From the NCBI GenBank assembly GCA_030018455.1, contig JASEFU010000001.1:311545-375544 (forward strand): 64,000 nucleotides of DNA, given 5' to 3'. Below the pieces are notes generated by a model that was not told the DNA's origin, did not search any database, and saw only the letters and a list, made by a program, of their open reading frames with translations. Positions 20,196 to 44,514 of the stretch are shown piece after piece. A program made the position numbers and the translations under genes. The stretch's first letter is position 1. Each line of letters begins with the position of its first letter. Origin of the DNA: Dehalococcoidia bacterium. GTDB taxonomy: Bacteria; Chloroflexota; Dehalococcoidia; DSTF01; JALHUB01.

Positions 20196-20362
20196 CGGCC
20201 GGACGCCGCTTCAGCAGAAAGACGCCGCGAGGCTGGCGGCCGGACGTTGCTTCAGCGGAGCAGCAGCGACGTCGCTTCTCGGCAGGCTGCGGGATTCATC
20301 CCCTGCCCGCCGGCAGGCAGGCGCAGAACCGCGCCACAGACACGGCCGGACGCCGCTTCAGC
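20196..20362. repeat. Three near-identical 20-base direct repeats
   Basis: CGGCCGGACGCCGCTTCAGC occurs at 20196-20215 and 20343-20362. A copy with two changes (TT for CC) lies at 20237-20256. Spacings are 41 and 106 bases, so this is not a CRISPR array. The 20061-20414 gap has no credible gene; overlapping open frames in several phases reflect the repeats. The copies flank the palindromic element at 20302-20321. Confidence 0.7.
20302..20321. repeat. GC-rich palindromic element, 20.3-kb copy
   Basis: CCTGCCCGCCGGCAGGCAGG pairs at its ends (CCTGCC with GGCAGG) and resembles the inserts at 44327-44346 and 44358-44376 within a degenerate tRNA-Met. It is directly preceded by CTGCGGGATTCATCCC, and a similar CTGCGGGATGAATCCC lies at 57958-57973. 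Together these look like a dispersed REP-like family. Confidence 0.55.
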
Positions 20363-32105: not shown

Positions 32106-32319
32106 ACGTTTCTCCCCTGGAGGACGGTAGCCCACGTCCAATCGCGATGCGGGAATCATACAACGAGGCTGTCGCAAAGCGCCAACGGGTGGAGGCCCGG
32201 ACGTGCGAGGGACACGCCGCGTGGGAAACCCCGCAACCGCACGCTGCGGCAGGCAAGCGCCCCAAGAGCGAGCTGGGCGCAGAGGCAGGAGCCGGCCGAG
32301 CGGGCAGAGACGCCCGACC

Positions 32320-44311: not shown

Positions 44312-44401
44312 TGGTGGCAGCGGAGGCCTGCCTGCCGGTAGGCGGGGATTCGAACCCTCCACAGGCGGGCAGGCCCACGACCAAGGGCTTATGAGTCCCC
44401 T
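44312..44401 (-). pseudogene. Degenerate tRNA-Met copy with palindromic inserts
   Basis: The 3' half of the tRNA-Met at 44440-44514 is repeated here: the anticodon loop CTCATAA, the variable region, the T-loop TTCGAAT, the acceptor CGCTGCC and the CCA all match. The 5' part is missing, replaced by GC-rich palindromic sequence (44402-44425). The two strands of the T stem are interrupted by inserts at 44327-44346 (CCTGCCTGCCGGTAGGCGGG) and 44358-44376, which are partly complementary to each other, so the T arm could fold as a long hairpin. It cannot make a functional tRNA. Confidence 0.8.
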
Positions 44402-44439
44402 CCCGCCTCCGGCGGATACGCCGCCAATCGAGAAGACAG

Positions 44440-44514
44440 TGGTGGCAGCGGAGGGATTCGAACCCACGACCAAGGGCTTATGAGTCCCCTGCTCTACCAC
44501 TGAGCTACGCTGCC
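44440..44514 (-). tRNA. tRNA-Met-like (anticodon CAU)
   Basis: The 75-base gene has acceptor GGCAGCG/CGCTGCC, D stem GCTC/GAGC, loop CTCATAA with anticodon CAT, T-loop TTCGAAT, discriminator A and an encoded CCA. Two mismatches are visible: A31 with G39 in the anticodon stem and T50 with T64 in the T stem. The loop matches elongator tRNA-Met; a tRNA-Ile2 with modified C34 has the same anticodon and cannot be excluded. No 5' CCC/initiator features are seen. Confidence 0.85.

Follow-up and report, generated by a model that had tools for sequence, protein, structure and literature searches.

Immediately downstream of an intact tRNA-Met gene in a Dehalococcoidia bacterium lies a full-length tandem copy of that gene, which on balance we regard as a non-decoding duplicate that has been overwritten by mobile palindromes. 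It appears to be one case of a recurrent pattern in the class, probably left by tRNA-associated GIY-YIG elements, with the GIY-YIG link at this particular locus drawn from other loci. The locus lies in the window (the whole 64,000-nucleotide stretch of DNA that was analysed), within a 719-kb contig of a 2.38-Mb genome (G000), and was compared with Dehalococcoidia relatives, each species being represented by one draft assembly, mostly fragmented.

The parent gene, an intact tRNA-Met(CAT), occupies positions 44440..44514 on the minus strand, as called by ARAGORN and by Rfam (RF00005, 68.4 bits). The copy, crippled in two of its arms and defined by alignment with the parent, lies downstream of it on the same strand (44312..44425, read 44425->44312), beyond a spacer of 14 bp (44426..44439). 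A tRNA-Met repeat beside the complete gene, 128 bp away, had been claimed in a sequence-only reading of this DNA, and is confirmed by these calls and the alignment. That reading took the repeat for a 3' half, of which the 3' part is indeed present; the copy nevertheless spans the whole tRNA, including a 5' acceptor strand (GGCGGCG followed by TA, 44417..44425, minus strand) that in the sequence, alignment and fold pairs with CGCTGCC through one G-U pair. This strand had been overlooked because it is located inside a stretch labelled as another palindrome on the D side. What stands of that label is a hairpin, TCCGCCGGAGGCGGG (44402..44416, minus strand), which replaces the D arm of the parent, GCTCAGTGGTAGAGC, 15 nt for 15 nt.

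Beyond this hairpin, position 26, the anticodon arm (CAT) and the variable region have been kept, identical to the parent gene (44377..44401, minus strand). Next, on the 5' side of the T arm, comes a 19-nt insert, CCTGCCCGCCTGTGGAGGG (44355..44373, its boundary being ambiguous with 44358-44376; minus strand), which the alignment places between the 5' strand of the T stem and the T loop. The T loop and the 3' T-stem CCC are retained (44347..44357, minus strand), and a 20-nt palindromic insert, identified by a family search as a member of the CCTGCCTGCCGGYAGGCRGG family and having the parent tRNA as its empty site, splits the 3' strand of the T stem (44327..44346, minus strand). The CCA end is encoded at 44312-44314, and the retention of the anticodon loop, variable region, T-loop, acceptor and CCA was therefore rightly recognised from the letters. 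Outside the D-arm hairpin and the two inserts, the copy is the same as the parent gene except for one base of the 5' acceptor strand, and even this base forms a pair (G-U) in the 7-bp acceptor stem.

Neither ARAGORN nor Rfam called a tRNA in the copy (44312..44425). Its predicted fold comprises the acceptor stem, the D hairpin, the anticodon-arm stem and a single long T-arm hairpin (-62.8 kcal/mol), much as had been anticipated from inserts of 19-20 bases on both sides of the T stem. Against shuffled sequences, the T-arm part is the better folder in nearly all cases (z -2.89, 3/200), and the whole region stands out less clearly (z -1.70, 10/200). The inserts had been described as paired, which needs no coordinated origin, because near-self-complementary palindromes in one RNA pair automatically. 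As palindromes have replaced the D arm and split the T arm, decoding by the copy is most unlikely.

A second crippled tRNA-Met copy is found in G001, the sole genome of the same family in the comparison and a member of another genus. The order there (tRNA-Met, a 16-base spacer, the crippled copy and an isocitrate-dehydrogenase-like gene) is syntenic with that of G000, and alignment places a homologous D-arm hairpin, CCCGCCTGAGGCGGG, at the same position as TCCGCCGGAGGCGGG. Because this hairpin is common to both copies, the duplication of tRNA-Met and the replacement of its D arm predate the split of the two genera. The other inserts are lineage-specific: in G001 the T arm is intact and a 19-base palindromic insert lies in the anticodon loop, and this copy scores 34.2 bits as a tRNA. 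The non-insert part shows few differences between the genera, and at one of these, base 50 of the tRNA, each copy agrees with the parent gene in the same genome, an agreement that points to gene conversion as the probable means by which the non-insert parts stay near-identical to the parent. At an isocitrate-dehydrogenase-like gene examined for synteny in Chloroflexota C20 bin.54 (L124), no tRNA was found nearby. In G006, from another family, tRNA-Met has a second copy ~450 bp downstream that keeps the acceptor and T arm around an unrelated, non-palindromic middle (L260, G006:C28:30552-30644).

The CCTGCCTGCCGGYAGGCRGG family, to which the 20-nt insert belongs, is nearly self-complementary and is dispersed through the genome. 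The idea of a palindromic element had been staked on the insert having other genomic copies, and these are abundant, with 58 forward and 66 reverse matches in the 2.38-Mb G000 versus 2 and 4 for the reversed control (<=3 mismatches); a chance match of the 20-nt insert is excluded. A further member, CCTGCCCGCCGGCAGGCAGG, was found by the family search in the window at 20302..20321 (L016). The family is rich in five of the 60 genomes compared and nearly absent from the rest, with forward matches numbering 31 in G000, 15 in G001, 31 in G006, 17 in G016 and 13 in G038, and 0-2 in nearly all others. For several copies the same flanks occur elsewhere in G000 without the ~20 bases, as paralogous empty sites, and the palindromes are for this reason regarded as insertions; a clear target-site duplication was not seen at the empty-site comparisons. 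One candidate empty site, for locus L223 at window position 32301, was rejected as a chance match with non-homologous flanks. Approximately 34 family sites occur in G000. The Met copy and the duplicated Leu unit described below, which are independent of each other, together span 0.015% of the genome and yet both contain members, giving a Poisson P of ~1e-5; the genome-wide statistics for G000 are drawn from pattern searches and retrieved stretches. None of the intact tRNAs of G000 carries a family palindrome, and an Rfam scan of 20 loci found no palindromes within other known RNA genes, with only an intact tRNA-Lys nearby. The 5' T-arm insert CCTGCCCGCCTGTGGAGGG bears only a loose resemblance to the main family, which counts against the favoured explanation. 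Some palindromes seemingly lie in coding sequence (e.g. L003, L019), and many are held or bordered by an intergenic repeat of ~100 bp with TTCCCACC and GGGGGACACCCC motifs, partly as nested insertions (G000: L004, L005, L012-L014, L210, L212, L225).

Crippled copies have been found beside tRNA-Leu, Ala, Asn, Arg, Ile and Val as well as Met, in at least 10 genomes of the class belonging to several families. In this pattern, one to three crippled copies lie beside an intact tRNA, with arms replaced or split by palindromes. In G000 itself, tRNA-Leu(TAA) is followed downstream by two identical 298-bp tandem units (L008, L092; G000:C2:326067-326155 and 326365-326453), each formed from a truncated GIY-YIG ORF and a crippled tRNA-Leu whose anticodon stem is flanked by two family palindromes. 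The anticodon loop of this crippled tRNA-Leu is TAG; a role as a functional tRNA-Leu(TAG) was considered and rejected as superfluous, an intact tRNA-Leu(TAG) being present elsewhere in the genome. In G001 the anticodon arm of a tandem tRNA-Ala copy consists of GTCGCCTTAGGCGAC, and a tRNA-Ile copy in G006 carries GTCGCCTACGGCGAC. A pattern scan of 393 genomes of the class brought in further cases: three tandem copies of tRNA-Ala, and copies of tRNA-Asn and of tRNA-Arg in two genomes each. Where the palindrome was the long variable arm of an intact tRNA-Leu or tRNA-Ser, the match was set aside as normal. Several of the example genomes were chosen by their palindrome pattern, and frequencies are consequently biased. 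Shuffle tests are weak on single remnants, and the argument is one of recurrence at the same tRNA positions. In G008, the Arg and Ile remnants (L304, L348) share nearly the same T-loop insert, GCYGGACRGCCGCCCGTCTGGGC, at an equal tRNA position.

This recurrence in seven tRNA types and several families means that the Met copy is no one-off pseudogene. Among open-licence papers, none was found that describes crippled chromosomal copies of tRNAs whose arms are palindromic. Such copies also form an annotation trap, as they can be labelled as odd tRNAs; a crippled tRNA-Ala of G001 (L207 204-277, minus strand) was labelled "tRNA-Stop (tta)" by ARAGORN. The same program predicted a tRNA-SeC on G000:C3 (L081 472-568, minus strand).

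At eleven of the crippled-copy loci, a small GIY-YIG nuclease ORF (truncated in two cases) lies next to both the intact tRNA and its crippled copy. Three tRNA-linked ORFs match Pfam PF01541 (E 3e-15, 1e-14 and 4e-16), and the truncated ORF of the G000 tRNA-Leu unit, MFYVYVLRSLRDGGLYVGLTG, reaches 15.1 bits (E 0.03), below the Pfam cut-off. A palindrome-agnostic scan, which required a Y-V-Y-V-L start after a tRNA 3' end, returned seven places in six genomes, with zero in the controls; further GIY-YIG loci were taken from a search for the nuclease family, and the remnants were read without using palindromes. In all remnants of G185 Ala, G058 Asn, G008 Ile, G216 Ala and G016 Val, the anticodon arm has become a closed hairpin (stem 5-8 bp, loop 0-4 bases), and the Val remnant at the G006 GIY-YIG locus holds two palindromes in its T stem. 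The 5' acceptor strand has been lost in most of the GIY-YIG-linked remnants. The palindrome of the G185 remnant, TCCCGATNNNATCGGGA, is dispersed, with 13 sites in G185 versus 0 in the control and 17 sites in G346, so that remnants can carry the mobile palindromes of their own genome. One GIY-YIG locus, in G025, stops at a contig edge.

Other observations count against a GIY-YIG origin. In G046 a tRNA-Ala is accompanied by a GIY-YIG gene with the remnant absent, and there is no ORF beside the crippled copies of G137 Ala, G001 Ala and G006 Ile, or beside either Met copy. Neither Pfam, run on the downstream frame, nor a custom profile, run over all six frames of the whole window, detected any trace of GIY-YIG at the Met locus. 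A degraded ORF just downstream of the Met copy (frame VFTGHSEHHLDRR), GIY-YIG-like by eye, was rejected, having no Pfam match and nothing ranked there in the custom-profile scan. Since the Met locus lacks such a trace, a GIY-YIG origin of its copy is argued by analogy. The suggestion in the sequence-only reading of a remnant from a tRNA-targeting element holds to the same extent, through the sister loci with GIY-YIG ORFs.

The main rival is plain tandem duplication of the tRNA (through slippage or through unequal recombination) and subsequent neutral decay of the copy, with palindromes landing in a tolerant spare and the GIY-YIG genes being a separate matter. We consider this possible, though rather unlikely. 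It sits well with the ORF-less state of both Met loci and of the tandem copies G001 Ala, G006 Ile and G137 Ala, and an insertion into an essential tRNA gene present only once would kill the cell, so that surviving insertions would be visible only in duplicates. However, the near-identity of the Met copy to its parent outside the inserts is unlike simple decay, the tRNA copies carry insertions at a density far exceeding that of the genome as a whole, and the same replacement of arms is seen in the GIY-YIG-linked remnants. An improbable alternative is that the copy is a selected tRNA-like RNA, its hairpin arms kept for processing (as an RNase P acceptor/T-arm substrate) without decoding, and serving as a processing signal, stabiliser or decoy. 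Most GIY-YIG-linked remnants have no 5' acceptor strand with which to form a tRNA body, the two Met copies differ in the positions of their inserts, and the palindromes are also dispersed elsewhere in the same genomes; these points weigh against the retention of the acceptor stem, T loop and CCA in both Met copies, the tRNA score of the G001 copy (34.2 bits), and the common architecture that different palindromes yield in other genomes (a 5-8 bp hairpin with a 0-4 nt loop at the anticodon-arm position).

Two further proposals concern the source of the copy and of its inserts. Mobilisation of the inserts as REP-type elements by a RAYT (Y1_Tnp) transposase is very unlikely; Y1_Tnp genes are present in 5/5 palindrome-rich genomes, but also in the palindrome-poor G004 and G005, the palindrome ends show no GTAG or CGTC enrichment, and the Y1_Tnp gene of G000 is flanked by another palindrome. 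That gene (L299, G000:C3, Y1_Tnp at 1501-1845) has CCCCAGCCTGAAGGCTGGGG or its reverse complement on both sides, forming a REPtron-like unit. An attachment-site scar, in which the tRNA 3' end was duplicated by an integrase-type element using the tRNA gene, is disfavoured as highly improbable, even though the sequence-only reading had seen such a look in the copy. Scars of this type do occur in these genomes, including a tRNA-Gly(CCC) 3' half in G000, 2.6 kb from its gene (L082, G000:C2:151757-151825), two tRNA-Lys 3' halves in G001 (L203, G001:C251), and many in G006, whose weak tRNA matches are mostly palindrome-free integrase-type 3' halves. The known scars, however, are 3' halves with unrelated 5' sequence and free of palindromes, those of tRNA-Gly and tRNA-Lys lying kilobases from their genes, whereas the Met copy has a 5' acceptor strand, lies 14 bp from its gene and carries inserts inside its 3' half.

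For the preferred reading, a duplicate overwritten by mobile palindromes, the recurrence and the GIY-YIG neighbours suggest that tRNA genes are the prey of a selfish element. In the cycle that we infer as most likely, a tRNA-homing GIY-YIG element would break and duplicate tRNA segments, as phage SegB does, and the spare copy would then be free for destruction. Mobile palindromes would insert into it, abolishing decoding and, possibly, the nuclease site; their entry may reflect tolerated insertion, destruction of the nuclease site, or both. At the Met locus, the GIY-YIG ORF may have been lost, or may never have landed. A more speculative and doubtful extension is a natural form of cleave-and-rescue, in which the element would cut an essential tRNA gene, the palindrome-closed copy would no longer decode or be open to cutting, and retention of the adjacent intact tRNA by the element would leave the host dependent on the locus; on this view the Met copy would be a scar left by one such event. 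These findings link duplicated tRNA genes, mobile short palindromes and free-standing GIY-YIG homing nucleases, which are usually treated separately. They make testable the movement of ~20 bp palindromes, any preference of these for the arms of tRNA genes, and any SegB-like reshaping of tRNA loci by chromosomal GIY-YIG genes.

Among known systems, Rickettsia palindromic elements (RPEs), to which the sequence-only reading had likened the inserts, are also palindromic and dispersed; they are longer, at about 100-150 bp, whereas the palindromes described here are ~20 bp and untagged. RPEs end with CGTC (PMC3733652), a motif found near the palindrome end in 0/39 elements of G000 and 2/18 of G001, no more than in controls. 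GTAG-REPs, which occur with RAYT transposases, are short palindromes with a GTAG tag at one end (PMC3733652). The present palindromes resemble them in being short, dispersed and patchy among relatives, but they lack the tag (GTAG at the palindrome end in 2/39 elements of G000 and 2/18 of G001, not enriched) and differ from the palindrome at the local Y1 transposase. They are neither RPEs nor GTAG-REPs, and what survives of the earlier proposal is a dispersed element in a structured RNA gene. In G001 (L231, L243), a repeat, CCGAGGCTGGAAAGCCTCGGCTAC, formed from a hairpin and then CTAC (GTAG on the other strand), resembles a canonical GTAG-REP, and at L243 a CCTGCC-type palindrome lies inside one of these repeats.

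Sponge mitochondria contain repetitive hairpin-forming elements that are dispersed, also inside structural RNA genes (PMC2800124), and are akin to yeast mitochondrial GC clusters. The palindromes described here are likewise short dispersed hairpins inside structural RNA genes, and show the many copies, patchy distribution and empty sites that mark dispersed mobile hairpins; unlike the sponge elements, they are found replacing or splitting arms in spare tRNA copies, on bacterial chromosomes and beside nuclease genes. The GIY-YIG nuclease SegB of phage T6 causes segmental amplification of tRNA genes, giving tandem repeats of tRNA and truncated segB (PMC13096335). The Dehalococcoidia loci differ in being chromosomal, in having a duplicate that is crippled by palindromes instead of raising tRNA supply, and, at the Met locus, in having no detectable ORF. 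A GIY-YIG ORF adjoining a tRNA with duplicated segments, as with SegB, is nonetheless found at the sister loci, among them the G000 tRNA-Leu locus, though not at the Met locus. The likeness to SegB thus lies in a GIY-YIG nuclease beside tRNA genes, in the many tRNA isotypes involved, and in the tandem array of tRNA and truncated ORF at the tRNA-Leu of G000.
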